DNA of 64,000 bases, taken from the NCBI GenBank assembly GCA_964036295.1, contig OZ038465.1:25330870-25394869 (forward strand), written 5' to 3'. Each line of letters starts with the position of its first letter. The stretch's first letter is position 1. Below, one piece after another: positions 7,137 to 56,964 of the stretch. The translations under genes and the position numbers were made by a program. This DNA is from Plumapathes pennacea. Taxonomy: Eukaryota; Cnidaria; Anthozoa; Antipatharia; Myriopathidae. The notes beneath the pieces were generated by a model. The model saw only the letters and a list, made by a program, of their open reading frames with translations. It searched no databases and was not told the origin of the DNA.

Positions 7137-8460
7137 GGACTGATTATATGAGACCGGTAACAACTCAGACCGGTACAACTTCAGTTCGGTCTCCATACGA
7201 ATCCTTTGTTTCCGTTTACATGATACCGGTTCGAAAACTCAGCTCAAACCGGTTTGATTCATTACGGGAGCTAGCCAACAAGAATAAGTCAGACCCGGTC
7301 TGAGTCGGATCGGTTCGGCACCTTTTGCTTATAGGGCGTAGCCTGACGAGCTTAGTTTTGCAAATGTGTCTTCATCATGTTGTTAGTTTTTATTTCTGGG
7401 TTACGAATCAGTACACGGTGATTGGTTCACATTTCCACGTGATATATTATGACATAAAGTGACTTCGCGAACAACTTAAGATGTGGGCGCCGCGATTGAA
7501 TTGTACGTTTACAAATGTGTGTAAAGTTAGCTGTATCCCATCCAAACTCAACACCGTTTGGCTTCGGCTTATCGTACAGTGCCTGTTGAAATATTTCTTC
7601 CATTCGATCATGTAGCCTTTGTTTCGTAGTGGTAATTGTATACTAGAAATGAAAAAATACACCGAAATAGTCCTGAGCATTGAGTTTGTTAATCACAAAT
7701 GACTGAACACGCTGTGAACAAAACTGCAATAATATTGTAAACAAGTCTCGTGTTACTTTTCTCGCTGTCAATTATATATCTTTTACGGAGCGGGAATACT
7801 CGAAAGCCTCATAGAAGAAACGCATTCAGTAAAAAATATATATAAATATTGAAGCGAAGACTAGATTTATCGTGGCCTGTATTTAAACATAAGTGTTGAA
7901 AATCAAACTGTCAAAATTGACTGAGCATGAAAAGATAAGTCACGCACTACTATTTTCCCTGCTGGTTAGCCTTTTAACTCCAAAGCTCAAAATGCAGAGT
8001 CGCTCAACCTTTAAGAAGCAAGTGCATGAGTGTTGTAATGAAAATTTATAGTAATAGGTTTTTATTTGAGCAAGGTGTCAAAAGTCAAGTTCTCTATACT
8101 GTGTGATATTTTTCTGGTGAGAAATTGAAAGTTTCTTTTGGGAGTCTCGCTCTTGTCCCTACTTTCCATTTTAATTTCTTCTGGTCTCGACCCCACCCAA
8201 CGAGCTCACTGGCAATGCCAGTTTTGTTGCCCGTGTAGTCGCTCTCGGAATGATTCAAACCAGTCTGAGATGAGTCTTCAAACGGTCTCATGTGCACAAA
8301 AACAAGGATTTATATGGAGACCGATCTGAAGTCGTATCGGTCTGAGTTTATCCCAGTTTTGTCTCATTTTTTGCTATTTTCGTACCGGTTTCATGTAATG
8401 AGTCCGTGTCGTTCTGAGTTAGAACCGGTATAACTTCGTAGGTCTCATGTAATTACCGCC
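7137..8460. mobile_element. Foldback element with ACCGGT subterminal repeats, carrying an R1 repeat copy
   Basis: The arms at about 7137-7275 and 8229-8460 are inverted copies. Both carry AACTCAGACCG, GGTCTCCATA and ATGAGACC words, and ACCGGT recurs through them. The inside (about 7340-8220) is a copy of dispersed repeat R1. No ORF of note is present. The target duplication is not clear. The right arm is longer than the left, so the element is partly deleted or R1 inserted within it. Confidence 0.6.
7340..8220 (+). repeat. Dispersed repeat R1, copy A
   Basis: It matches copy B (17806-18475, reversed), copy C (18760-19181 joined to 23973-24015) and parts of copy D (27030-27950). A diagnostic block is TACTGTGTGATATTTTTCTG followed by a GAGCTCACTGGCA end. 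TTAA at 8011-8014 is the uninterrupted version of the site where the 19186-23968 element inserted in copy C. Confidence 0.8.
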
Positions 8461-17805: not shown

Positions 17806-18475
17806 TAAACAAGACTGGTTGCCAGTGAGCTCGTTAGGTGGGGTCGAGACTAGAAGAAACTAAAATGGAAAGTAGGAAAAAGAGCGAAACTCCCAAAAGA
17901 GACTTTCAGTTTCTCACCAGAAAAATATCACACAGTATAGATAACTTGACTTTTAACACCTCTTGCTCAAATGAAACCTATTAGTATGAATTGTCATTAC
18001 AACACTCGTACACTTGCTTCTTAAAGGTTGAGTGATTCTGCATTTTGATCTTTGAAGTGAAAAAGTTAGCCCGCAAGAAAAGGGTAAAGCGTGACTTATC
18101 TTTTTATGCACAGTCGATTTTGACAGTTTGACTTTGAAGACTTACTTGTAATCAGAGGCCACGATAAGCTAGCGTTCGCTTCAATAATTATGTATTATTA
18201 TTATTTTTTAGTGAATGCGTTTCTTCTATGAGCCTTTCGAATATTCGCGCCCTGTAACAAATATAAATTGAAAGCGAGGAATGTAACATGAGACTTGTTT
18301 GCAATAGTATTGCGGGTTTGTTCACAGCGTGTTCAGTCATTTGTGACTAATAAACTCAATGTTCAGGACTTCGCGAAACAACTCGAGATGTGGTCAGCCG
18401 AATTGCTGGTTACTTGTGTGTAAAAGTTAACTACATCCCATCAAAACTCAAACGCCATTTGGCTCTGTGGAACAT
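17806..18475 (-). repeat. R1 repeat, copy B (left inverted arm)
   Basis: The reverse complement of copy A and of copy C. B and C flank a 290-bp spacer (18475-18760) that matches 27460-27780, so B, spacer and C form one long-armed palindromic element. The empty TTAA site is at 18021-18024. Confidence 0.75.
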
Positions 18476-19185
18476 GCACGGATAAACTGGATTTTAGGGA
18501 ACGATTTTGGCTTGCGTTCTTAAGTCCACCGCGGAAGCTTTGAGAATAGCAGTAAACAAATGTTTGATGGTTACCTCTACGGGATTGCAAATGTCTTTGT
18601 CGCCGTTAACTACTTAGTCCCGACGAAACTTTCTGCGATGACACGAAATACTTCTAGAAGATACCAGGCCGAAAACGAAAACCAAGACAATGATGAGCTT
18701 TAGCCGTAAAACAATGACGCTTTATGCTTTACACTGTACATGACATCTGTTGCCTCATAAAATGCTTCTGCTTATCGTACATTGCCTGTTTAAATGTTTC
18801 TTTCATTCGATCAAGTAGCCTTTGCTTCGCAGTGGGAATTGTATACTAGAAATGAAAAATACACGGAAATAGTTCTGAAGATTAAGTTTGCAGTCACAAA
18901 TGGACTGAACACACTGTGAACAAAACCGCAATAATATTGTAAACAAATCTCATGTTACATTCCTCGCTTTCAATTTTATATCTGTTACAGAGCACGAATA
19001 CTTGAAAGTCTGATAGAAGAAACGCATTCAGTTAAAAAAAGAAACAGTATATTGAAGCGAGGGCTGGATCAATCGCGGCCTCTGTTTAGAAACAAGTGTT
19101 TGAAGTCAAACTGTCAAAATTGACTGCACGAAAGCCAAAGTCACGCGTTACTCAGCTTACTTGCTGGTAGTCCCTCAACCTTTAA

Positions 19186-19760
19186 GAGGGGCTCTCTGTA
19201 AATATCGAGAATCGGGCGCCAAATACTAAATTTCGAAATTCATTTTATTTTACCCAAAGAACCTCTTTGGTGAACTGTCTTCGAAAATAATATTCAAAAG
19301 TTCAACTGCCTTTTCGTTTTGGCAAAATCACGGAAAGCCTAAAATGCCCTCTCAACCCCTCGAACCGACACGGAAATGGTGCATATTTAACAAGCTCGTG
19401 TAATAAAACGGTAAACAATCTGGTCATTGCAACTGGTTATGGAAACTTGACCTTGTGGTAGTGTTTCGATTTTTCAAAAAGACCAAGGTAAAAAGCGGCA
19501 GGTCAAATTTTTGCCAATTTTAATTTCACCAGGAACATTTGGTACCTGTCGTTTGAACAAAAACCCAACGTCAACTGAACTAATAAGCATTGAAATGGTT
19601 TTCCGCGGCCCGCAAAACGCCTCGCGTTGAGAAACATAAACAGTGACGGTGGTTTGACACAATCGGTACCGGATGCGGGAAATGGCTTCGGCTAAAACGA
19701 AGAATTAAACAGGTACACAGATGAGATTAAAAAATCGATTTGCTATATTCTCTTCCATTG
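19186..19760. repeat. Left terminal inverted repeat of the TTAA element
   Basis: It matches the right repeat through landmarks such as GGCGCCAAATACTAAATTTC, ACCTCTTTGGTGAACTGTC and GGTACCGGATGCGGGAAATG. The match stays visible up to the AGAGAATATAGCAAATCGAT region near 19745. The right copy has an extra ~50 bp near 23672-23720. Confidence 0.9.
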
Positions 19761-19764
19761 TGTG

Positions 19765-21075
19765 ACTTGAGTTTAGTAGACGGCATCAACTGGCTATTCT
19801 GGCCGGGTGAAGGGTTTCTGCGGCTGAGCAACAGATCACCGGCTGAATTATTTCCGACAGCACTGATATGGAAATAAAATTGAACTGCTGGTGACGTTTA
19901 TTTTAGAACTCGGTCACAGGCCGATTTGTTTTGCTTGCTGAGACGTTCTTTGGCGGATCTGCAAGACACGACTGCACAATTTCAGATAAAACCGCAGTTC
20001 ATAAACCCCTTCAACAGCAAAGGTTTTAAAGTCGAGAAAATCAAACCATTTCACGGTAACACTTGCTAAAGCAAATGTTGATTAATTTACCACCAACATT
20101 TTGCGGGACATTTAAGTCACGCAAACGGCATCAAATTTCTGTTAAAGGGCTTTCATGTGTTAAAATGACAATCTTTTTCCAATTGGAAAGCAAGGATTTC
20201 GAGTTACAAGTACGTATTACGGTTAGCTGAGGTTGGCAAATTAGATGTTATGTTGACCGCGATAAGTGGATTATTGTGTATAACTCATTGACATCTATCT
20301 GAAAGTCCTTCTGTAGCTTTTGATTTAACTATACCCAGTCACTCTAATGGCTTGTAGTGAAAATACTTGGTAACATACACGTTCTTTTACTGCAGTGTTA
20401 CAGTTGAAACTTTCTGTATTAAGAACTTTTGAATTCCGGAAAATGTAATCTGATCCGTGCCCGCGTCGGTTCTTATTCACCACAACATCGCCTTTTTCTG
20501 CGAAAATGACACTCTAAGTCAAAACATTTTACAATAACACGTCAGTTTGTCCCTTTGTTATTGGCTAATTTTCATTATCAATAATAGGACAGACACATAA
20601 AATCGAGTGCTGACGAAAGTGATTTGGACGAAGAAGGGGAATTCAGCTTCAATTTTACCTCAATACTTGCAAAAGCGACATTCGGCATTTGAAGTAGAGA
20701 ACCAGAAGTGTTCAGAGGCGAATTTCCTTGAGCTTTGCCTTAAAATTGTCGAGAAAACCGCAGCAGAAAAGCGTCTAGATTCATTTCTTTCCAACTTCTT
20801 TGACAAATTTCATTTGCACACGTAAAGTGCTCACGTCAAACTGTCACTTTTCGGCCAACGAAATGTCTTGAATTTTAACCTCGACCAATTAGAAAGCGGG
20901 AAAAGTTGTTGACAACATTTCGGTCAAATCAAACAAAATTCAGTTTTCTTGCGTGTTTTTCCCGCCTCATCGCTTGAGTTTTGTTATTGTAAAAAACAAA
21001 TTGGCGTCAATTTTTTATGTGTCTGTCCTCTTATTGATTATGAAACGCGTCATAACATTGTCAAAAAGTTCCGGA
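19765..21075. other. Internal part of the TTAA element, no recognised gene
   Basis: About 1.3 kb of unique sequence. The only ORF of note is plus 20607-20825 (72 codons, ending FLSNFFDKFHLHT), with no domain that I recognise. No DDE triad or PGBD-like Cys-rich end is visible. Confidence 0.5.
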
Positions 21076-21151
21076 TAAAAGAGAATAAAGCAAACCGAGT
21101 TTTTAATTGTCAAACGTTTGATAATTTTCTCATCTGTGTAAGTGTTTAATG

Positions 21152-21178
21152 CTTCGATACGATACGATACGATACGAT
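21152..21178 (-). repeat. LINE 3' tail, (ATCGT)n
   Basis: Five near-identical ATCGT units (CGATA on the plus strand). They differ from the ATTGT tail at 4.65 kb and the TGTA tail at 53.8 kb, so three LINE families are represented. Confidence 0.8.
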
Positions 21179-21284
21179 AATCTTTATTTAAACACGATAA
21201 GAGTTTAAGCATCAGCTTGTGGGGTCGTGTGTAAAAACAAATAGTAATAAGCTAATCAGTAACCTATATTTAAATTATTAATAA

Positions 21285-23153
21285 CTAGTAAAAACTAACA
21301 TTCCTATAATAAATATCTAAAAATACTAATAATAATAACAGCAATAACAATAGCGTGCTGGTATAATGTATAATTAATATATAATATCTAAAATGTTCAT
21401 TAAAATCTGGGATGGACTGGGCAGATAGGGCGTTAAAATCTATATTACGAAGTGTTTTTGTTCCTTTGGCCCTTTTCACATACGCTGTAGCAGATAGTGT
21501 TTCATCGCAGGGTAAGTGCGCTGAAAGTGCGTTCCAAACTATTGGGCCCCTATGGGCGATAGAGTTTTTCATGAAATAGGTATTGAACCGGGGCACCTTG
21601 AGTTTGTTGCTATTTCTGAAATTATAATTATTATTGGGTCTTTCTATAATGTGGGACATGCTGTTCGGTGCTAAATCATGATATAACTTGTACATTAATT
21701 TCACTAAACTAGTTTTATATATAAAAAATAGGTTGTCCCATTTTGCCGTTTTCAGAACGTCCACTGTAGGCATATCCCATGGGAGATTGAAAATAAGTTT
21801 GGCTGCTCTGCAGTGTAAGGATTCTAAAGAGTTGAAATTGTCCTTACAGGTGAAGCCACCACAGACGAGTATCGCGAACGTTACTGAGGGTAGAATTACT
21901 TTAAAATATAAATCTAAAAGCGTTTGTCTGGGCAGAAATCTGCTTCTTTTGATCATATTTAATTTACTGGCGAAGCTCTTTTTTACTTCGCCAATATGAC
22001 GGGACCAAGTAAGTTTGTCATCAATTGTGACTGCGAGCAATCTGGAGTGTTTGACCCATCGTATTTCATGTGCCCCTAGTGTGAGTTTGTTGAGTGGGCC
22101 GATGAAGGAGCCTCGGTGGAGTAGCATCGCCTCACATTTCACGGGGTGCGGGATCATGGAGTTCGAATTACACCAAGTATACAGCTCGTTGAGCGAATTG
22201 TTGAGTAGTTCAGTAACTTCGTCCACGGAGTCGCCAATACAATAGAGTGTTGTATCGTCCGCATACATAAAGACTGTCCCAGAGGTGACCGCCAGGGGCA
22301 AGTCGTTTGTATACAATAATAACAGGACGGAGGTCTGCGGTACACCGCAGGTCACTTCAGCGTAATCTGACCTTTGTCCGTTTATGGTGGTGTACTGCTG
22401 TCTTTGCCCCAGGTAGTCTTTTAGCCACGATAGTAGACATCCGGTGATTCCAAAACAGTGTTCAAGTTTGCTTATAAGTCTGAGATGTGATACACTATCG
22501 AACGCTTTCTGGAAATCGATGAAGACTACGCCGACAACTTTTTTGGAATCAAGGGCTTTTCTCCAGATCTCAGTTAAATTGACCAGTAATAGGTCTGTGG
22601 AGTGTCCCTTCCTGTATGCCCATTGATGTTCTGTGACCAGCTGGTTGTCTGTGAAGACGTGTTGAACAATACTGTCTGTTACGCATGATTCAATGATTTT
22701 ACTAGGTACACTTGAAATTGACAACGGTCGGTAGTTTCCACACTTTGTTTCATCCTCTTTCTTGAACACCGGGTTTACCCTCGCTGTTTTCCATGCACTG
22801 TAGACGGTTCCACTGTTTATTCTGTGCGAGTACAGATATGTGAGTGGTGGTGCGATTGCCGGCCCAGCTAGTTTCAATAGCTTGGGCGATATTCCATCCG
22901 ATGCAAGTTTCTTTTCAATGTTACTATTCTGTAAGCTTATTTCAGATGTCTTCTGGACTTGGTCTTTCTTTTGTTTGTCAGACAATGGCAGTGACGGGCA
23001 ATTTATAGTCAGGGTTTTTCCAATAGTAGCAAAGAATGTATTCATCAAGTTTGCTTTTTCTTTGTCGTCTACAGCAAGGCTTTTGTCATCGCGTTTCAGT
23101 GGACCAATGCTTTCCTTTACCTTGGGATTAGTCGCCTTTTTAACAGTTTCCAA
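21285..23153 (-). pseudogene. LINE reverse transcriptase (622 codons, defective)
   Basis: Minus-strand ORF. RT motifs are in order: NYRPLSISSVPSKIIES near residue 140, WAYRKGHSTDLLL near 178, FIDFQKAFDSVSH near 211 (first catalytic Asp at 213), TCGVPQ near 268 and MYADDTTLY with the catalytic DD at 299-300. The GVPQGSVLGPLLFLLY block is shortened to GVPQTSVLLLLY, an apparent four-residue loss beside the active site. The segment before SDGISPKLLK also looks shortened. The N-terminal linker continues in another frame at 23117-23391 (WISNTIRLKMNRIYKLFKRA), so one frameshift lies near 23140. No endonuclease is present. The long open frame suggests a fairly recent insertion. Confidence 0.85.
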
Positions 23154-23390
23154 TATGCGGTTGATGACTTGACTTCGGCCAGTTTATCGTGGAAGTATGA
23201 GGCTTTAGCCCTCCTGATTTCTGAAGTTATTTCATTTCTGAGTCGTTTGTAATCAGCCCATATCTCATTGTTCTTTGTGTCGACAGCTCTTTTGAAGAGT
23301 TTATATATACGATTCATCTTCAGCCTTATGGTATTGCTGATCCACGGAGCCGACAAGCCTGTCACCTTGACGTCCTTGTACGGGGCGTGC

Positions 23391-23968
23391 TTCGTTTTAG
23401 CCGAAGCCATTTCCCGCATCCGGTACCGATTGTGTCAAACCACCGTCACTGTTTATGTTTCTCAACGCGAGGCGTTTTGCGAGCCGCGGAAAACCTTTTG
23501 AGACAAGAAATTCCAATGCTTATTGGTTCAGTTGACGTTGGGTTTTTGCTAAAAAAAACAGGTACCAAATGTTCCTGGTGAAATCAAAATTGGCAAAAAT
23601 TTGACCTGCCGCTTTTCACCTTGGTCTTTTTGAAAAATCGAAACACTACCACAAGGTCAAGTTTCCACATTTATTTTAGGTGCTTTAGATAGAAAAAGAG
23701 GTACCTTGAATTACTGAAGAGTTGCAATGACCAGATTGTTTACCGTTTTATTACACGAGCTTGTTAAATATGCACCATTTTCGTGTCGGTTGAAGGGGTC
23801 GAGAGGGCATTTTAGACTTTCCGCGATTTTGTCAAAATGAAAAGGCAGTTGAACTTTTGAATATTGTTTTCGAAGACAGTTCACCAAAGAGGTTCTTTGG
23901 GTAAAATAAAATGAATTTCGAAATTTAGTATTTGGCGCCCGATTCTCGATATTTACAGAGAGCCGCTC
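23391..23968. repeat. Right terminal inverted repeat of the TTAA element (outer part)
   Basis: Inverse of 19186-19705. It contains a private insertion of about 50 bp at 23672-23720 (TTTATTTTAGGTGCTTTAG onward). The plus-strand ORFs 23268-23501 and 23387-23581 across it are not considered genes. Confidence 0.9.
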
Positions 23969-24018
23969 TTAAGAAGCAAATGCATGGTGAGTGTTGTAAT
24001 GATAATTTATAGTTTATT

Positions 24019-24043
24019 GCTTGTGACGTCACAAGCTATAAAA
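24019..24043 (+). promoter_or_regulatory. CRE-like palindrome beside a TATA box
   Basis: GCTTGTGACGTCACAAGC (24019-24036) is a perfect 18-bp palindrome with the CREB/ATF core TGACGTCA. TATAAAA follows at once (24037-24043). A GATTGGTTG (CCAAT-type) word lies at about 24091. Start sites cannot be read from sequence. It may be a relic promoter of a mobile element, since it lies at the edge of repeat R1. Confidence 0.35.
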
Positions 24044-24329
24044 TGCAGCGATTTTTTTTTTATTTTTCTGGGTTAGAGATCTGCATGCGATGATTGGTTG
24101 ATATTATCATGTGATTTGTGATGACGTTGTGATCACGTGACTTGTCGAGCAAGCAGTTTCGCCATTTTGAAGACAGCAAGTTGCTTGCCTTAGTTGGCTC
24201 TGTGGATTATTTTATGGACCGCTCATCTTACTTACAAACGCATACGCCGGCTGCGGTAGACCCATACTAAATTTCATTGAGCGGTTTTGGCTTGGGTCGG
24301 TCCGTTCAGCCTCAAAAGCCACATTGAAA

Positions 24330-24497
24330 GCCATGAAAGCAAATGCAATGAATTTATCAATGAACTGCATAACTATGCACAACTGTACAGAAATGTACGA
24401 AGAATTTAATATCCAGAACCTTGAGAACTTGAAGGAACAAGCTGAACGAAGGCGCTCGAGATACAAAGACGAGAACCTGTGTAAAGACGGCGATTCT
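24330..24497 (+). CDS. Short unrecognised ORF downstream of the CRE/TATA site
   Basis: About 55 codons from an ATG near 24330 to TGA near 24497. The end reads EEFNIQNLENLKEQAERRRS and is charged and helical, resembling a short coiled coil. No family is recognised. The opposite strand is also open (24212-24466), which lowers confidence. Confidence 0.2.
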
Positions 24498-24743
24498 TGA
24501 CAAGCGCTTGATAGCGGATTATATGGAACTGTTTAGTATGAGGGTGAACTTGAAGGTACTTTGTATTCTTTTACTTTGTATTATTCTTGCTGATACAAGT
24601 AAAGCGTCAGAAAATCTGACTTTTGTTTGGAATCAAAATTTCACTCTGCGTGCATTTATGTTGTTGTTGCGAGATTTTGGCTCGGTGCCATGAAGGTCAA
24701 ACAATCAGTGGAACAGATGGCGTTATTATTTGAAAATTAGGAA

Positions 24744-25079
24744 ATGGCTGAGGAAAAAGTGACCGTTGGTAGATCTTGCTTCGCTCAGTTTTATTGTATT
24801 CCCATAAATGTTTATGTGAAAGAAAACCGAAGTCCTCCAAGACGAAGTCGTGAGCCAAGCCACGTACCATTGAATTACCTTTCACGCATTTTGAACAAGA
24901 GTAGAAAAAGCAGGCGACTAATACAAGAATACATTTCAAAGAATGTCCCAAAGTCGTCAAAAGTTCATGATTATACCCGAGCTTACGTACTTCACAATGC
25001 TAATGCGTTCCGTGAACGTGCATGTAAACAACATGGAAACAATAAAAAGCCACAGATGGAAATGGAAAGAGAAAATTAG
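24744..25079 (+). CDS. Unrecognised basic ORF, related to 25579-25953
   Basis: A 111-codon ORF. Its middle (NYLSRILNKSRKSRRLIQEY then ISKNVPKSSKV) resembles the plus ORF at 25579-25953 (LLSFHSRRFNKSRKDRQAIT then SRIFVTEYLEVFKV). The DNA is also alike (CTTTCAC..., AACAA..AGTAGAAAAAGCAGG against AACAAAAGCAGGAAAG). The two may be diverged copies of one element sequence. No domain is recognised. Confidence 0.25.
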   Translation: MAEEKVTVGRSCFAQFYCIPINVYVKENRSPPRRSREPSHVPLNYLSRILNKSRKSRRLIQEYISKNVPKSSKVHDYTRAYVLHNANAFRERACKQHGNNKKPQMEMEREN

Positions 25080-25578
25080 GATCAATAAACCATCGCTGCG
25101 AGAAAGCTAGAAGCTCAAAAAGAAGATTGCCAAAAGTAACCGAGGTGCTAAGATACGTTTGTATTTTAAAATGTGTTAAAACACAGGCATTGCAAGATCA
25201 GACGTATTCAGAGATCAAAATCACAGAACCAAGTACAATGGGTTTTCTCTGTCAAGGGATATAGGAAAAAATTCCGGTCCTTCAGTTGTTGATCCAAACA
25301 AAACGATCATCGGTTGGCTTTCTGGATGCACGGAAGCCATACTTTAGGAGCGATTTTGGCTTACATTGTTTTTAAGCGTCGGAAGACTTAGAAAAGAAAA
25401 TAGCCTTACCCAAATGCTTGATGTGTTACCAGCGGGACCCCCGTAAAGTACGAAGGGTTGTGTTTTGCAAATGCTCGATTATAGATACCGCTTCAACCAA
25501 TGTATCTGTGTTCTGAGCAATATTTGTGTGAAAGAACATCGAATAAGTAGTAGAAGACGTGTCGAAACTTGATAGAAC

Positions 25579-28199: not shown

Positions 28200-29645
28200 T
28201 CAGCAAAGCGAGCCGGGTAAGGAAATTGCCGCTAATAGTGCAGCTTTAGCCGAAATAGCTGTGGTGTTTTTTTGAGTTCCACCAACGGATCCTGGCTTTA
28301 GTCTAATTAAACTTAAAAGCCGGAAAAGGTGTGACAGCGTGACACTGCTATGTTGAAATGATATGACAAAATAAAACTATGAACAGTTTTCTGTTATCTA
28401 TTTATCAAGATTCTCTAAACAAACCGATTGTGAAAACCCACCAAAATTATACCAGAGAGGAAGACGAACTCCACTGATCAAAAACCGATATTCCAATCGT
28501 ACATAGTTATTAACTTAACCCCGTGGGATTAGCGTGTCGTGCAACGATTGTCTTATGCTAATTAATGGTTACCCAAGACTTGCAACACTTTCCTCGTTTT
28601 CTGAATCGCTGCTGCTTAAAAACACTGTAGTACCCGGAAACATATCTGAGCTGACAAAAGCAAGTTTGAAACCAATACAATAACCGAGAAAATCGACCTG
28701 ACAAAAGATTTCTCACGAGTAACCACGAGTAACCACACCAATAAAAACAAATACTCTGTTACTATTCAATCATAGCGGTTACTCGTGGTTACTCATGGTG
28801 TGAGCACAAATGATGTGTCTTGCGAAGCTTTTCAACCGACTAAGCGTTTAACTCTGTTCTTGCTCGGAATTTTGTGTATTAAAGTAAAATGTGGCCACCA
28901 CACGTAATTCACGGGTAACCACAGAGGTCTCACGTTTCTCTGGTTCAGTCTCCTTGCTTTTGTCGGTGTAATTTGAAACTGCAGAAGGCGCACAATATCG
29001 CATAAAATCTTCGATCAGACTCCAATTGAAAAGGTTCAATGAAATCTACGTCTAATACGTTGCGTCCGCTTCACCCTTGTGCATCATTCAAACCGCGCAA
29101 AGTGACGGTTGGCCTTTGGACGTACATGTTTGATAATCATCAAATCAGAAACCAAACCGCGAACTCCTTATAAAGGGACCATATAATAACATGCGGTACC
29201 TATTTTGTCGAATTTAGCAGAAAAATGTAAGTCTTCCCCGGCTGAAACGTATAGATTACGAATAAACTGATACACGTAGTCTCAGACTGTAGCACTAAAC
29301 GATATTCTTGTGGCAAAGTTAACGCTCTACATTTATTGCTACGCAGCAAGGAAAGCAGCAGTCTATATTATTGACATACGATATCGTATATGCAGGAATA
29401 TTTCACTCATTCTCGCTTAAAGTACACAAGCTGCCATTTTACGTGTCTTTCGCTAATAATTCTGTTTGTGGGATCACTAGAGCCAAGGTTACTTCATCAA
29501 AATACTAATAGATACTTTTAATAGGATCAGTAAAAAAAAAGGGAAAAGGTTTGGTTTTTCCTACAAATTATTGGTCAAAACACCCCAAAACAGGCACTTT
29601 TTGAATGTCCGCGACGGAGTTGCCACTAAACATCTTCTTTGTGTG
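28200..29645. other. Intergenic, with a GAGTAACCAC inverted repeat
   Basis: No gene was recognised. At 28714-28804 the word GAGTAACCAC occurs in tandem, then its inverse (GTGGTTACTC) in tandem about 50 bp later. GGGTAACCAC recurs at about 28912. The minus ORF 28848-29039 has no domain that I recognise. Confidence 0.5.
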
Positions 29646-29649
29646 CCTA

Positions 29650-29877
29650 CAATCCTGCCCAAAAGTATGTGGGACACTCTTCTATTTCTCAACATTACTC
29701 TCTTTTAAATAATGAAAGCGACTCTTTTTCCGAAAGGTAACCCTCCCCCCTCCCCCCATACAATGTTGCATAAAGGCAGTGCACTTTGAGCACACTCAGT
29801 CAACATTGTCAGGGGGGAAGGGAAGGGGGCGGGAAGAGGGAAAGTGTCATAATTTTTACATTTTGGCCAGGATTGTC
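29650..29877. mobile_element. Mariner-like MITE, copy 2
   Basis: Reverse-oriented copy of 15607-15838. Left end CAATCCTGCCCAAAAGTATG, right end CATTTTGGCCAGGATTG. It contains the same CCCCCT-rich core. TA precedes the left end. Confidence 0.75.
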
Positions 29878-29879
29878 TC

Positions 29880-31070
29880 TATAGCGCGAGTTAGTAAAAA
29901 ATGCCATAACTTTTACAAGATTTTATGTATTGCGGCCAAATTTGGATGGGTAAATTTTATAAACTTTGCGCATGTATTTTCGATATATTCACTGGGAAAA
30001 AATATTTTAGCACGAGTTTTCAGTGATATAAGGTGTTAATAGGGGTTAATTTAAGAAAATGTCATAAATTGGTGCGAGCATTGAGTAGCCAACTCTTAAA
30101 GCAAGTGTTATAACGAGCGTTCATTCAGAGAAGGCACCGACCGAAACATATTTTGATTTTTTATCTGTGTAGATGTATTTTTTTTTTGAAAATTAAATGA
30201 AACCGGATACCTACAATAATATTACAACAAAGAAGCATGCAACGCACCTCCCCACTACCAACGGGCTTGGTCAGATATTTAGCAGTGCACCTGTTATAAT
30301 TCACCAATAATTCACAACACTGTTCACACTTGCGTTTATCATCATACTGATCACACTGAGAAAGAAAATGACTCGCCTTCATGTACTATTAAAAATGTAC
30401 GATCGTGAACTACACGAATACAATGTTCGCACCGGTTCATCATTTCAACAGCTTATAAAAAAATAATATTTTGTTTTAGGTTATAACGATTCACCATTTT
30501 CAATTGTCTCAATTTTGGTAAATACTTTCACAAAGTAAATGATAATGGTCTATACGTGAACATCGTGATTGTTGAAGCTGTAGCAATCAATACAAAAACT
30601 AACAGTGTATAACTGTGTTCCTAGTGAAGCAGCCCAAAACGGTGAACCGTGAGTGTGAATCGAGCGGTGATTCGTGTGTGCTGAACCATAAAAACATACC
30701 TAAGACCACGGCCGCAAACAACTCTAACCGCAGAAGACTTGGAAATTGCACAATCTAGCGCGATGTCGCTCTACTTTATTTTACTTGATAGTATATGAAA
30801 CAAGCTTTCAGCAGAGACTTTACTTCTGGAGGTACGCTTAGTATAGTCTTAGTTATGCCTGAGAGAACAATGTCCGAATACTTTGGATAACCTTCGCTAC
30901 CTTAAAGTAGGCTGATCGGATGAATGTTTAAACATGGTTGTTTGCACTTTTTGTGCATCGAATGTGCTCCTTGAGCATCGCCCAACCAAATGAAAAATAA
31001 AGAATATTGCGGTCTTTTATACAACCTGAGAAATTCCACAACTTAGAAGAGTACCGCAAGGTTATGGTTA
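29880..31070. other. No recognised gene
   Basis: AT-rich. GGTTCA/TGAACC words recur at 30437, 30640 and 30690, perhaps the ends of a decayed element. The only ORF of note (30161-30382 minus) has no domain that I recognise. Confidence 0.4.
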
Positions 31071-31782
31071 AGAGTATAACCTCCGTTACCTAGATTTCTC
31101 AATGTCTTTATATTCAGTCTTTGTTACGTTTTACGCGCTAATAATTGTTTGGCCAAAGACCAAAGTGGGGTAGAAAACAGCGATCGAGAAGTTAATATAC
31201 GGTAGATAAGAGACACGAAAGTCTGGAAACATAACCTCTGTTACCGGTGTTACCAATAACCTCCGTTACAACAAATCAAAATCTGTGTTAATATTAACGG
31301 TGGAGTAGCACAAACCATTTGTAAAGTTATGATAACGTTGCGCAAACTTTTTCCTGTGGATTTCGCACCGTGTACAGCCTTTTCAGACCTCTTGTCTGCT
31401 TCACGTGGTTGTGATTACGTGTAATCCCAGAGTTTTCTCCCAAAATCAAAGTGTTACGTGTTCTTTTGCTACGAAATTGATAACACAAGCCAGGTAAGCA
31501 CGTTTACTTAGTACTCTGTCCTTCTTTTTAAAGACTGTAACCCAGTAGGTTCGAAAATTAACCCCATTCAATGAACTTAACGATTCTGGTAAAGGAAGTT
31601 GCGTCGGTCGGTTAAAGTGTCAGTATGTCCGGACTGACGTTTGGATACACATGAAACCCCTTCCATATCATGTTATGCTTCCATGCCGTTCTTAACTGAA
31701 GAAATAATCTTTCCTGGATAAAGACAGAGCTTATCTCAAAACTATATAACACCAAACGTCGATTACACGCTTTCTGCCCTAG

Positions 31783-31917
31783 ATGCTCCCTAAAACGCGA
31801 GCAGAGATCCAACGAGCCTATCGCCAGAAGAAACAACAACAGGAAGGGATAACGAAAGCGCCTAAAAAGACACGGTCTGAAATTCAAAGAGAATATAGAG
31901 GAAGAAAAAGCAAATAG
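31783..31917 (+). pseudogene. N-terminal piece of the DDE-like protein
   Basis: 44 codons from ATG 31783 to TAG 31915-31917: KTRAEIQRAYRQKKQQQEG then KKTRSEIQREYRGRK. The two SEIQR.YR blocks form a short basic repeat. The next frame, open from 31899, carries on with EENERERKRRAYIPTSLL and leads into the main ORF, so a frameshift in 31899-31917 separates them. This basic start resembles the N-terminus of multi-copy transposon proteins in other animals. Confidence 0.5.
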
Positions 31918-33125
31918 ATAGGAAAGGATATGAAGAAAATGAAAGAGAGCGGAAGCGGCGTGCATACATTCCAACGTCCTTGTTAGACGAAAAGGTGCAG
32001 GCACGTCTTCCGAATTTGCATGCAATAGTCCAGATGGACTTTGTCGAAAACTACACCTGCCAGTCCTACGAGGAGGTACAGCCGGCCTACTGGAATGCGT
32101 CAATGGTAACGCTTCATCCATGCGTTGCGTACTTAAAGTCCACTGAGGGCGAGTTAAACCACTTTAGCAGAGTTTTTGTCTCAGATGAGCTTGGTCACAA
32201 CTCTGCTACCGTATTTGCGATTATCAAGAGGCTGATGTCAGAAATGAAGGAAACATCGCCAGGCCTTCAGCACGTACACTACTACACCGACAGCCCAACC
32301 TCCCAGTACCGCAACAAAACGATGTTTCACATCGTTAGCCAACATGAAAAGCTTTTTGGTGTCACTGCATCCTGGAACTTCTTTGAAGCAGGTCATGGTA
32401 AAGGCCATTGTGATGGCGTTGGAGGGTCGATGAAGCGCATGGCCGACGAGGCTGTGCGACAACAGAAGGCAGTCATTCAAGATGCTGCCGACTTCTTTGC
32501 ATGGGCAAAATCTGGGCACATGGCAAAAAGTTCAGTTTCGTTCTACTTTGTCCCAAAGCAAGACTGCCAGGCTGCCAACCAAGAAATACAGCGTTTCGGG
32601 AAAATCAAACCTGTTCCTGGGACACTGAAGCTTCACGCAGTTGCGGGAGATCTACAAGAGCCGGGAAAAATTATCGCAAGAGAAACCTCGTGTCATTGCG
32701 AACAGTGCTTCAACGGTGAATCATTTAACCGCGATTCACCATGCAAGTGGTCAACGCATATTCTGAAGGAACCCCAAATCCCAGGTGTGATTAAACCAGC
32801 GACAGGTGACTGGATTGCCGCAGTTTACGACGATAAGTGGTACGTGAGTGAAGTCCTTGAAGTTGACAAAACTGACGGCGACGCCAACGTATCTTTCATG
32901 CATTCGTCTTCAAAAAATGTAGCCATGTTGAAGAAGCCTAACCAACCAGACGAGTTGTGGGTCATGTTTGGTTCGATACTTGCCATATTTGAGCCTCCAT
33001 GCCCCCACGGAAAAACGCGCAGGCAGTTCAAGTTAAACAGTGATACTGTGGACAACTCTAAACAAAATGGCTGGACCAGTAGGCAAATGGAGAGGACATG
33101 CAATACCTACAAATATTTTGAATGA
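31899..33125 (+). CDS. DDE/RNase H-like transposase, N-terminally broken
   Basis: Open from 31899 with no ATG before the core. Residues below count from codon 31980. Candidate catalytic acids sit in RNase H-fold settings: D20 in AIVQMDFVENY, D104 in HVHYYTDSPTSQYRN, and E136 or D145 in FFEAGHGKGHCDGVGG. A Cys cluster (C238, C240, C243, C255) could bind zinc. A C-terminal module (about 276-345, GDWIAAVYDDKWYVSEVLEV ... VMFGSILAIFEPP) looks like an SH3/Tudor-like barrel. I recall this layout in unclassified multi-copy animal proteins, but I cannot name the superfamily. The region between the basic N-terminus and D20 looks short, so an internal deletion is likely. Stop is TGA 33123-33125. The opposite-strand ORFs are shadows. 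Confidence 0.7.
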   Translation, partial: RKKKQIDRKGYEENERERKRRAYIPTSLLDEKVQARLPNLHAIVQMDFVENYTCQSYEEVQPAYWNASMVTLHPCVAYLKSTEGELNHFSRVFVSDELGHNSATVFAIIKRLMSEMKETSPGLQHVHYYTDSPTSQYRNKTMFHIVSQHEKLFGVTASWNFFEAGHGKGHCDGVGGSMKRMADEAVRQQKAVIQDAADFFAWAKSGHMAKSSVSFYFVPKQDCQAANQEIQRFGKIKPVPGTLKLHAVAGDLQEPGKIIARETSCHCEQCFNGESFNRDSPCKWSTHILKEPQIPGVIKPATGDWIAAVYDDKWYVSEVLEVDKTDGDANVSFMHSSSKNVAMLKKPNQPDELWVMFGSILAIFEPPCPHGKTRRQFKLNSDTVDNSKQNGWTSRQMERTCNTYKYFE

Positions 33126-33499
33126 CTTCAATAACCTCCGTTACAAAGATCGTTACCACAAAACAAATGATTAATTCGTTATTTGTGAGGTATAAACAGG
33201 ATAATCATTTTACAAATATAAGATCACTCACACAGTAACGCTTTTAAGCATACATACCTTTTGTAGGTCTGAAACAACCAACTACTTACAAACTTTCATA
33301 ATCTATTAACCATCGCTCCCTTATAACAACATGATTATTCCAGTTTATAATCAAAAGAGTTAATACTTTTGCAACTTAGGTATGTGAAAACACATGTACT
33401 TTACTCAGTGACCAATAAAACAGTCATTAATGTCAAACTTTTGAATAAAGTCTTCAGTCTATTTTAAGGGAATTTGTGTAACTTCCGTTACCAAAACCG

Positions 33500-33990
33500 T
33501 TACCAGAGAGATCCTCGATATCACATGAGGCAAATTTTCGAAATCTTCTAGGACTTTCTGAAAGTGTAAACAGCACCTCAAAGATTTTAAAACGCTATGA
33601 AATAATTTTTTGCCACCCATATCGAAAAGGGAACAGAAATCAAAGGCATTACATCATGTTTTCCACTCAAAATTGTAAATTTGCTGAATGTCTCAAGTAC
33701 CCATTTAACGTTACTGGTGAAATGTGCGTAATTTAGCAAGTACTCTTGAAAAATATGTGTATATTTTTAGTCCCACCTATATGTAATGAAATAACGATAA
33801 CTTCTTGAATATAAAAGATTACATGAAAATGTTTCGTACATTTCATCTGGAATACCTAAGCTGCATGGCAGAAACTTCAAACATGAAATTGGTGCGACTT
33901 CGTGTTGGTCGATTTCACAATTCCTACTTGTGTACTTTAAGCGAGAACGAGTGATTTTTGATTTGCTTGACTGCAGTCGATTTTCAAATT
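33500..33990. other. No recognised gene
   Basis: AT-rich. The minus ORF 33767-33994 has no domain that I recognise. Confidence 0.4.
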
Positions 33991-34897: not shown

Positions 34898-35495
34898 TTG
34901 TCAGGCAAAAATAGAACTGTTTGCTATTGACGAACATCCCATATCTACCATAAAGTATATGCTCTTTGCTCCTAGACGTGATATAACTTACACACCCTAA
35001 AATTTAAAATAGGAATTGAACTGCAATATTGTTTGACGGGGTTCGACTTAGTTTTCTTTGATAGTCAACGGTATATAATACAGTTGGAATATGTTGCCAC
35101 ATATTCGACAACAGACACAAGTCTGTGGACAGAAATAAGTACGACGCAGTTTGGGTAACACCAATGCGTAATCCTGGGTGGGCTAAGCTTTGCTTCAGCA
35201 AGTGTGATCGTCGCCATAACAGTAATCGTATTCATTTGTGCGTTATATAACTCAATTTGAACAGTGACCATCGTCCCAGTCCCGGCCCATGCACACACAC
35301 ACGACACACAAATTAATTGAATTTTGTTTGTTAAAATACGTTTGACCTGTTTGGATAAGTTCTTCTCACGCAACATCTTTCTGGTGCTTTTATTCGTTTA
35401 GACTGTTCAACGACAAGTGACTTTTGAAATACGGCTAATCTCAGATATTGAATAGGACCAGGCACTAGGCTCGACAGGACTCTGTACGACTATTA

Positions 35496-36631
35496 CACCT
35501 TTTCCTGTTCATTAGCGCAAAATACGCATTCATTTACGTCTATCGACAATCAATAACGTTCATTTACGTAACGGTGCATTCATTTAAGAAAATATCACTT
35601 TCAATAACAATTTTTGCATAATCTGAAGCGTTCAATTGCATTTTCCGGAAATCATTAGTGTCTCTGGTCATTCTTTTGCAAACAACAACTTTAATTTGCG
35701 TGATCATTCATATCATTAGCACCAATCGAATAGTCAAGTGCGCGAATAGGCAAGCATTTTAACGATAGTTATGTTCATTAACATTTTTAAACCTAAACAG
35801 GCATGCAATAGCATTTCTAGGCAACCATTAGTGCGTGCATGACAATCATTAATGCGCTCATACAATCAATTGCACATTTTCAAAATTCATTAAACAAAAA
35901 TGTATTTTCAATAAGAAATAGTGTCTTTTCCCGGGAAATATGTCTGGATAGTTCAATGGATTACACTTTCACAATGATAAGCCAAAGGTTACGTAGCTTT
36001 TTTTTGAACAAAATGCCTATATAATGCACTGTACAGTTCATTTGTTGTATACCTGTACATGTACGTATTCCGTTTAGCAAGCGCTGATACATGTACATGT
36101 ATTGAGATTTTCAAGACAACCATAGATATGCCACCAACAGAATACAGATGGCTAGTAACTGATCATAAAACCCTCGCAAAAGAGACAAAAAAACACTATT
36201 TCTTACTGAAAATACATTTTTGTTTAATGAATTTTGAAAATGTGCGATTGATTGTATGACCGCGTTAATGATTGTCATGCACGCACTAATGGTTGCCTAG
36301 AAATGCTATTGTATGCCTGTTTACGTTTAAAAATGTTAATGAACATGATTATCGTTAAAATGATAACCTATTCGCGCACTTGACTATTCGATTGGTGCTA
36401 ATGATATGAATGATCACGCACATGAAAGTTTGTTCTTTGTCAAAGAATGACCAAAGACACTAATGATTGCCGGAAATGCAATTGAACGCTTCATATTATG
36501 CAAAAATCGTTATTGAAAGTGATATTTTCTCAAATGAATGCACCGTGGCGTAAATGAACGTGTCTTCGCGTTATTAATCGTCGATAGACGTAAATGAATG
36601 CGTATTTTGCGCTAATGAACAGCGAAAGATG
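35496..36631. mobile_element. 1.1-kb foldback element with TA target duplication
   Basis: The arms (about 35496-35935 and 36188-36631) are inverted copies ending CACCTTTTCCTGTTCATTAG and, reversed, CATCTTTCGCTGTTCATTAG. TA flanks both sides (35494-35495, 36632-36633). Copies 2 and 3 of segment S show the empty site (ATATCATTAACGAG). The arms are built from a small vocabulary: CATTCATTTACG, ATCATTAGTG, CATTAATGCG, GTTCATTAACA. The loop (35936-36187) contains a 66-codon ORF with no recognised domain. No transposase is present. Confidence 0.85.
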
Positions 36632-37180
36632 TATTAACGAGCTACTCTACGAAGAATGTTACCCGAGATGAGTTGCAAAGCGTGTGTGTTCCTAGGGCCG
36701 AGTGCTAAGCACTTCGGTCTCTCACCAAAACTCTGGCTATTAAAATGGGAATGGAATCTCATTCCGGCTTGCATAAATCGTGAGCGAACACATGATTGAC
36801 ATCTTAATCTGTTTGCCGGCTGCTTTCCTTAGAGTTACAGCCTCAATTTTTCACGGCTAATCGCCAGTTTACACATTTTATTTTTTGGAGCTACCACTTG
36901 GCAGTGGAGCGTAGGCATTATACTGAAAAAGAGCCTGAGATTTTCATATACACATTTTCTTTAATTCAGTGTGCACAGTATTTTGATATTTTGGTGCTCT
37001 CTGCAATTGTTGGTTTTGACTCTTTATGCCACTTTGCACTACCGTTGATGGAAATGTACAGTACGTGGTGAAGTTCCTGGAAGAGAATCCGTGTTAAGAT
37101 CTGTCAGTGGCTACCTTGACTGCGGGATGTGAAACCGTCGTTTATCGCTAGCTGGGCACACAGAGCTGGGTGGTCCACAA

Positions 37181-55572: not shown

Positions 55573-56964
55573 TTATAAAGAGAACTGAGTTACATTTACA
55601 GTGTCTAGTAACTCTTCATAGGAAGAGCTATAATCCTTAAGAATGAAACGTAGAATGCGTTTGTTCAAGGCCTCTAATTTATCAGTGTTACGGGAGCTGC
55701 AGAAATGCCATACAGAAGAACAGTAGTAGAAATGGGGTAGAATAAAAGCCGTGTACAGTTTTAGAAGGGTGTCCTTGGAAATTAGTTTATGAAACCTTAG
55801 CATCACATTAAACTGATTATTTATCTTTTTACAAATTGTAGAAATATGGTCGCTAAAAGCTAAATTTTTGTCCACGTTAATTCCGAATATATCGATAGAG
55901 CTATCAGGGAAAGAAAATTTGTAATCTGTGTTGCCTAATACCATGGCCTGGTGCTTCATTTCGTTCACAACCATTCCATTATCACGGTACCAGGTATTTG
56001 CAACCTGCACATCGCTGGCTAGACGAGCATCCAGAGCGACTGGATCAGCATCTGAATCGTATATTTGTTGATCGTCAGCATACGCGTTGAGTTTAGTCCT
56101 TTTAACATGGTAAAACAGATCATTTATAAATATATTTAAAAACGTTGGTCCTAAGACGCTTCCTTGAGGGACTCCCCGTTTGATTGTATCCCAGCTTGAG
56201 AAAGTATCTCCGATCTTGACCCTCTGCTTCCTGCCGTTCAAATACTCTCTGAGTAAGGCGCAGCTGTTTTTGCCGACTCCGTACAATTTTAGTTTAGCCA
56301 GCAGTAGTGAGTGAGGCCGGATAACGTCAAACGCTTTTGACAGGTCTACGGATACGATCGCCACTAACTCCCCTCTATCCCGCATTAACCTTCAGTCCTC
56401 TGTTAGCCGCAATAACAACATTTCGCAGCTGAAATGCCTTCTGTAGGCAGATATAAAGTCTGAAAGGATTTCAACAAAAAAATCATTCAGCTGAGCCGCC
56501 AGCAGCCTCTCAAAAATATTGTTGAGAGCGGGGAGTACTGTTATTGGCCTGTAGTTAATCTTGTCTAATTCCTCGTTCCGTTTGTGGTAGGGGAGTCACT
56601 TGGCCCATTTTCCAGCGTGCTGGATAATAACATTGATCGATAGAGCTATTAATTATTTTGGCTAGGGGCTCTGCTATTACAGTTGCCGACTCTTTGATTA
56701 ACAGAAGTGGGATCATGTCATGTCCACAGGATTTATGCGTGTTAATATCCAGGAGCAGATGTTGAATTTGCACTCTGTTTGTGTGATGAAAACTGTACTT
56801 GACGTGGCGCGCGTCCTATTGTTCTTGTGAATGGCCTCGATGCTTGAATGATTAACAAAGTTTTCACCATGGTCAGTCTCATTTATGTCAGCAACGCCAT
56901 CAGCGATGTGTACAAAGAGTTTGTTGAACATTTCAGCAATTTGCTTCTTCTCAGTTATGACCAC
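55573..56964 (-). pseudogene. LINE reverse transcriptase, minus strand
   Basis: The main open piece (55573-56385, 270 codons) has VSVDLSKAFDVIRPH (first Asp at residue 14), KRGVPQGSVLGP near 70-80 and AYADDQQIY with the catalytic DD at 104-105. The thumb follows (FGINVDKNLAFSDHISTICK and KLYTAFILPHFYYCSSVW). Upstream the frame continues through LTED, then a TGA at 56392-56394 where Trp is expected. It reads back through YRPITVLPALNNIFERLLA before a frameshift near 56585 (LPQTERGIRQD). A second frameshift is near 56770. Three lesions make it inactive, but motif integrity suggests moderate age. Confidence 0.85.

Follow-up and report, generated by a model that had tools for sequence, protein, structure and literature searches.

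How did a long insertion without a visible transposase frame, bounded by TTAA on both sides, come to lie within a repeat of the anthozoan Plumapathes pennacea, and to which transposon family does it belong? The locus was analysed in a stretch of 64,000 nucleotides (the window) that lies on contig C4 of a 290-Mb genome of 24 contigs. The insertion, at 19186-23968, interrupts a repeat, R1, and is itself interrupted by a long interspersed nuclear element (LINE). Very probably it is a non-coding copy, with an internal deletion, from a cut-and-paste family that targets TTAA, and a transposase acting in trans put it into R1. The features are as follows, TIR denoting terminal inverted repeat.

8011-8014, no strand: empty target TTAA in another R1 copy (alignment)
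18021-18024, no strand: empty target TTAA in an inverted R1 copy (alignment)
18764-19185, plus strand: left flank of R1, closing with TTAA at 19182-19185 (self-comparison to 7561-7966)
19186-23968, no strand: non-autonomous TIR element with ends GAGSGGCTCTCTG (sequence, end counts, arm alignment)
19186-19768, plus strand: left TIR, outer part only; the junction 19768-19771 is common to the other C4 copies read
19771-20521, minus strand: inner stretch, adjoining the right TIR in relatives such as L009
20419-20422, no strand: TTAA that a related element occupies in L027, empty here (joined L027 flanks against the window)
About 20526-21076, plus strand: high-copy repeat (about 0.55 kb) inserted into the right arm, absent from L009
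21077-21156, minus strand: middle piece of the right TIR, ending in TGCTTCG (21150-21156)
21157-23387, minus strand: LINE fragment of 2.2 kb with target-site duplication TGCTTCG
21285-23183, minus strand: LINE reverse transcriptase frame, 632 residues between stops, RVT_1
23388-23968, minus strand: second TGCTTCG (23388-23394) and outer piece of the right TIR (23395-23968)
23969-24018, plus strand: right TTAA (23969-23972) and 46 bases of R1, after which another repeat starts

The element and its target site

TTAA stands directly outside both ends of the element, within R1; GAGGGGCTCTCTG begins at 19186 and CAGAGAGCCGCTC terminates at 23968. In the R1 copies at 8011 and 18021 the sequence is unbroken and matches both flanks joined at a single TTAA, so that the duplicated target has its empty counterparts in the same window. 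These observations bear out an earlier sequence-only reading of the locus, which had placed a transposon between two TTAA sites in R1 and had pointed to the same two copies. A 379-base R1 probe spanning the site found 3400 candidates in the genome, of which the best 40, the 8011 copy included, were all continuous; only these 40 were scored, so no fraction of occupied sites follows from the count. A further repeat, at 24014-25500 and 96.5% identical to L023 2770-1283 (contig C1), terminates R1 on the right-hand side of the insertion.

Another empty site, independent of the first, is found within the element, at the TTAA 20419-20422. At exactly the equivalent position locus L027 holds a 4.85-kb sister element whose ends are TTAAGAGCGGGTTGCTG, and the joined flanks of L027 were identical to the window at 110 of 114 overlapping bases.

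The left arm was aligned with the reverse complement of 21077-21156 plus 23395-23968, the LINE being left out. Of 569 aligned bases 543 were identical and 26 mismatched, the 83 gap positions all fell in the left arm, and the score was 478.6 as compared with 20.6 or less in 100 shuffles. The outer right piece covered 19186-19697 and the inner piece 19698-19754. Because these positions are contiguous in the left arm, the two pieces abut at the LINE without loss. The proposal that the right inverted repeat is split by the LINE, and that taking the LINE out restores it, is thereby confirmed.

The element is an internal-deletion form of its family. The shortened arm is the left one: it halts at 19768, and from 19771 on it gives way to the stretch that adjoins the right TIR in L009. 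The same junction was found at all seven other C4 loci described below. The right inner arm is present, and its portion 19953-20521 falls inside the 1.26-1.27-kb inverted repeat of relatives such as L009. The right arm therefore consists of 19953-20521, 21077-21156 and 23395-23968, broken by the 0.55-kb repeat and the LINE. When frames between stops were examined in 19186-21150 and 23395-23968, no transposase frame was seen within the element. The longest frame was 78 residues in the first segment, the mean of 200 shuffles of that segment being 90, and 85 residues in the second.

Insertions within the element

The LINE is flanked by its TGCTTCG duplications and has a (CGATA)5 tail at 21155-21179. 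Its relatives are 96-98% identical (40 of 147 candidates scored, the window itself among them). The empty site of this insertion was also found: in the five C4 copies read that lack the LINE (L017, L018, L021, L022 and L027), the right arm runs through the site unbroken. A stretch homologous to the LINE site, with up to 4 mismatches and in either arm, was present at 60 of 62 loci (L001-L062, many of which overlap).

The 0.55-kb repeat occurs genome-wide and occupies other places in L061 and L062, two longer GAGSGGCTCTCTG copies in which part of the extra length consists of further copies of it. A genomic search gave 1123 candidates, the 40 scored being nearly complete and 94-95% identical; five of these 40 were the window (100%) and other C4 composites. 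Other copies of the repeat have an additional arm, inverted and about 76 bases long, that is missing from the window copy.

The sequence-only reading had described three layers in the order R1, TTAA element, LINE. The order stands, with empty sites for both insertions. The count of layers does not, since the 0.55-kb repeat adds to them and the whole composite has been duplicated on C4. Such nesting is commonplace and the stack is ordinary genome history, useful as a clean record for relative dating; the modest gain lies in placing the family.

A second reverse transcriptase fragment (RVT_1) at 55573-56391 on the minus strand is probably part of another non-LTR element.

The element family in the genome

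The exact 23-base end TTAAGAGNGGCTCTCTGTAAATA has 73 copies in the genome (36 on the plus strand and 37 on the minus strand), compared with none for the reversed control. Nineteen pairs of exact ends are adjacent within 12 kb and delimit copies of 3.7-10.4 kb. A looser end pattern gave 159 matches compared with 1 for the control, and several subfamilies were visible among them.

Boundaries that depart from TTAA had been named beforehand as the observation that would count against such an element. TTAA was found on both sides in all 15 copies with both ends recognised, a test that is not fully independent because the recognition pattern, with up to 3 mismatches tolerated, itself contained TTAA. 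Four of the 15 were picked via patterns containing TTAA, which biases the count towards it; the pairs L011/L012 and L018/L022, having flanks in common, do not count as independent. Two deviations were seen: the left end of L017 is without its first bases, and L076 shows CTAA on the side seen. On self-comparison of ten copies, eight showed an unbroken TIR of 1.15-1.32 kb; in L010 and L064 a TIR arm is split into pieces. The long TIR of complete relatives had not been part of the earlier description.

A transposase linked to homologous ends

A DDD/E transposase is encoded by TTAA-flanked relatives of about 7.43 kb whose ends are homologous to those of the element. A C2H2 finger is present in its family, as is a conserved region at the C-terminus, and the fold predicted for a homologue resembles Mos1 and integrase. 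The predicted RNase H-like fold with an acidic triad is a feature of DDE cut-and-paste enzymes. In Foldseek the two best matches were an Argonaute and a nuclease from a viral terminase; Hermes and Mos1 ranked lower. None of 48 homologues matched a Pfam transposase model, and sequence searches of Pfam, NCBIfam (two proteins) and the PDB gave no transposase family for the linked protein; apart from signals for C2H2 and SAP they returned a small number of isolated single-member matches, such as a Wnt domain in one protein. The named species among the 120 homologues listed were the anthozoans Actinostola, Exaiptasia, Oculina and Paramuricea and the crinoid Antedon. Non-coding, TTAA-flanked repeats with long TIRs are now tied to a definite transposase family that has no transposase label in Pfam. 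The equal length of the coding relatives and their nearly identical ends suggest recent activity.

We infer that the linked enzyme, or a close relative, moved the window element and that the movement was cut-and-paste. The enzyme, acting in trans, would excise the element and paste it into TTAA. Several findings weigh against this explanation. No coding copy with exact GAGSGGCTCTCTG ends was found among the loci in which frames were sought (L009-L028, L059 and L060); frames longer than 120 residues were present in 8 of the 20 loci L009-L028, part of these were examined, and L061 and L062 were left out. The ends of the coding family are only about 64-70% identical to those of the window, and the coding elements were read in part. 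The DDE-domain match crosses at least one stop in 8 of the 9 coding-subfamily copies listed, which would reflect either an intron boundary or real decay; in L076 the frame is open across the match. Finally, the Foldseek result taken alone is weak, the top match being Argonaute with an E value of 4e-4.

At locus L078 (1760-4858, plus strand) a relative of the transposase is encoded in a single frame of 1032 residues, an open frame of this length being found at three loci. A repeat search gave no convincing TIR within the 6 kb of L078, which may belong to another type of element or to a family of host genes.

Comparison with known TTAA transposons

The possibility was considered that the element belongs to Kolobok. 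Its TTAA target and GA..TC termini agree with the 5'-RR/YY-3' rule of that group, KolobokP, D and E included (PMC9587614). The linked transposase family differs in its catalytic region: in all 46 complete triads among the homologues 30-31 residues separate the second and third acidic residues, and the C/DxxH motif expected between the second D and the last D/E is present in none of them, nor was it seen by eye in the L076 stretch. THAP, usual in Kolobok, was not matched in 5 long homologues or in 48 mostly N-terminally shortened ones, a result confined to these homologues. Membership in Kolobok is unlikely.

A non-autonomous piggyBac with unusual ends would share the TTAA target-site duplication and the acidic triad, and some bee piggyBacs have TIRs of 200-493 bp (PMC10140906). 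This origin is nonetheless quite improbable. The window ends begin with GAG, as opposed to the CC[C/T]T terminal motif of piggyBac, and the TIR exceeds 1 kb in most copies, as opposed to 12-19 bp (both according to PMC2872659). None of the 48 linked-transposase homologues matched the piggyBac Pfam model at E 0.01. The earlier assertion that the ends differ from those of piggyBac was therefore correct, and the relatives encode a transposase that is not of the piggyBac type. The coral CMITEs are likewise non-autonomous anthozoan TTAA elements found at TTAA within another repeat unit, but they are about 100 bp long and have 13-14 bp ends of the piggyBac type (PMC2872659). On the features tested, piggyBac and Kolobok each fail (PMC2872659, PMC9587614 and PMC6004289).

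TTAA alone need not make such elements piggyBac or Kolobok. Sola3 elements have TTAA duplications and GAG-like ends. We take Sola3 to be the remaining known TTAA group, and assigning the family to it is a guess from that general description; the likeness would consist in the TTAA target and in a DDD/E transposase unlike those of piggyBac and Kolobok. In the literature searched, which was covered in part, no description of Sola3 termini or of a Sola3 signature was met. It is conceivable, albeit doubtful, that the GAGSGG..TTAA elements with their C2H2 and DDD/E transposase form a separate TTAA superfamily, distinct from piggyBac, Kolobok and Sola3, with TIRs longer than 1 kb and a distribution in anthozoans and at least one crinoid.

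Another DNA transposon lies at 29404-33953 in the window. It has 28-bp inverted ends (CACTCRTTCTCGC...) of the CACTC type and the 4-bp sequence ATTT on both sides. It encodes a DDE-like protein (31899-33125, plus strand) that has no Pfam match and 168 homologues. Profile comparison of the catalytic block of the TTAA family with this transposase gave a probability of 95.6 and an E value of 1e-8; the two are distant relatives, which would fit a broad Sola-like group.

Composite copies along contig C4

The composite of R1 and element was found at eight C4 loci, at 21.94, 22.40, 22.44, 23.09, 23.80, 24.51, 25.35 (the window) and 26.15 Mb. Neighbours are spaced 0.04-0.84 Mb apart, 6 of the 7 intervals measuring 0.46-0.84 Mb. 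The left R1 flank is common to the window and 6 of the 7 other loci (about 92-98%), the seventh, L027 at 23.09 Mb, being without its left end. On the right, where five of the other loci were read, the first 46 bases are common to all five. Three of the C4 composites are preceded, at a distance of 17-46 kb, by R1 copies with 94-96% identity to the 8011 copy, compared with 11 kb in the window. Independent insertion of the C4 copies was rejected on the basis of these shared left and right flanks. Segmental duplication within roughly the last 5 Mb of C4 is the preferred reading, the LINE having entered a single lineage.

That no transposition into R1 took place, the locus being a single repeat whose middle was lost or gained by recombination or duplication, is barely credible: the shared R1 flanks do mark the C4 copies as duplicates, but copies elsewhere have unrelated flanks with TTAA on both sides and many R1 copies are without the element.

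In L019, at 26.15 Mb, the LINE occupies the position that it has in the window. The element at 24.51 Mb has two LINE matches between its ends, and one of them, at 24532581, lies at nearly the window's distance from the right end. This locus probably holds a third LINE-bearing copy. LINE-bearing composites elsewhere on C4, one read and one deduced, are a further addition to the earlier description. The composite was apparently duplicated along C4 both before and after the LINE arrived.

Very probably the events followed in this order. R1 was present first, and the element entered it at TTAA. The 0.55-kb repeat joined the element before the C4 duplications, either before or after its entry into R1. 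The composite was next duplicated along C4, after which the LINE entered one copy and produced the TGCTTCG duplications. Further duplication gave the LINE-bearing copies at 25.35 Mb and 26.15 Mb and, presumably, at 24.51 Mb.

The spread of composites over 21.9-26.2 Mb of C4, with the window at 25.33-25.39 Mb, suggests repeated segmental duplication near one contig end. Elsewhere in the window, an inverted pair at 35491-36636, with main arms of 243 nt at 94% and three further arm pairs around them, is a possible foldback element.

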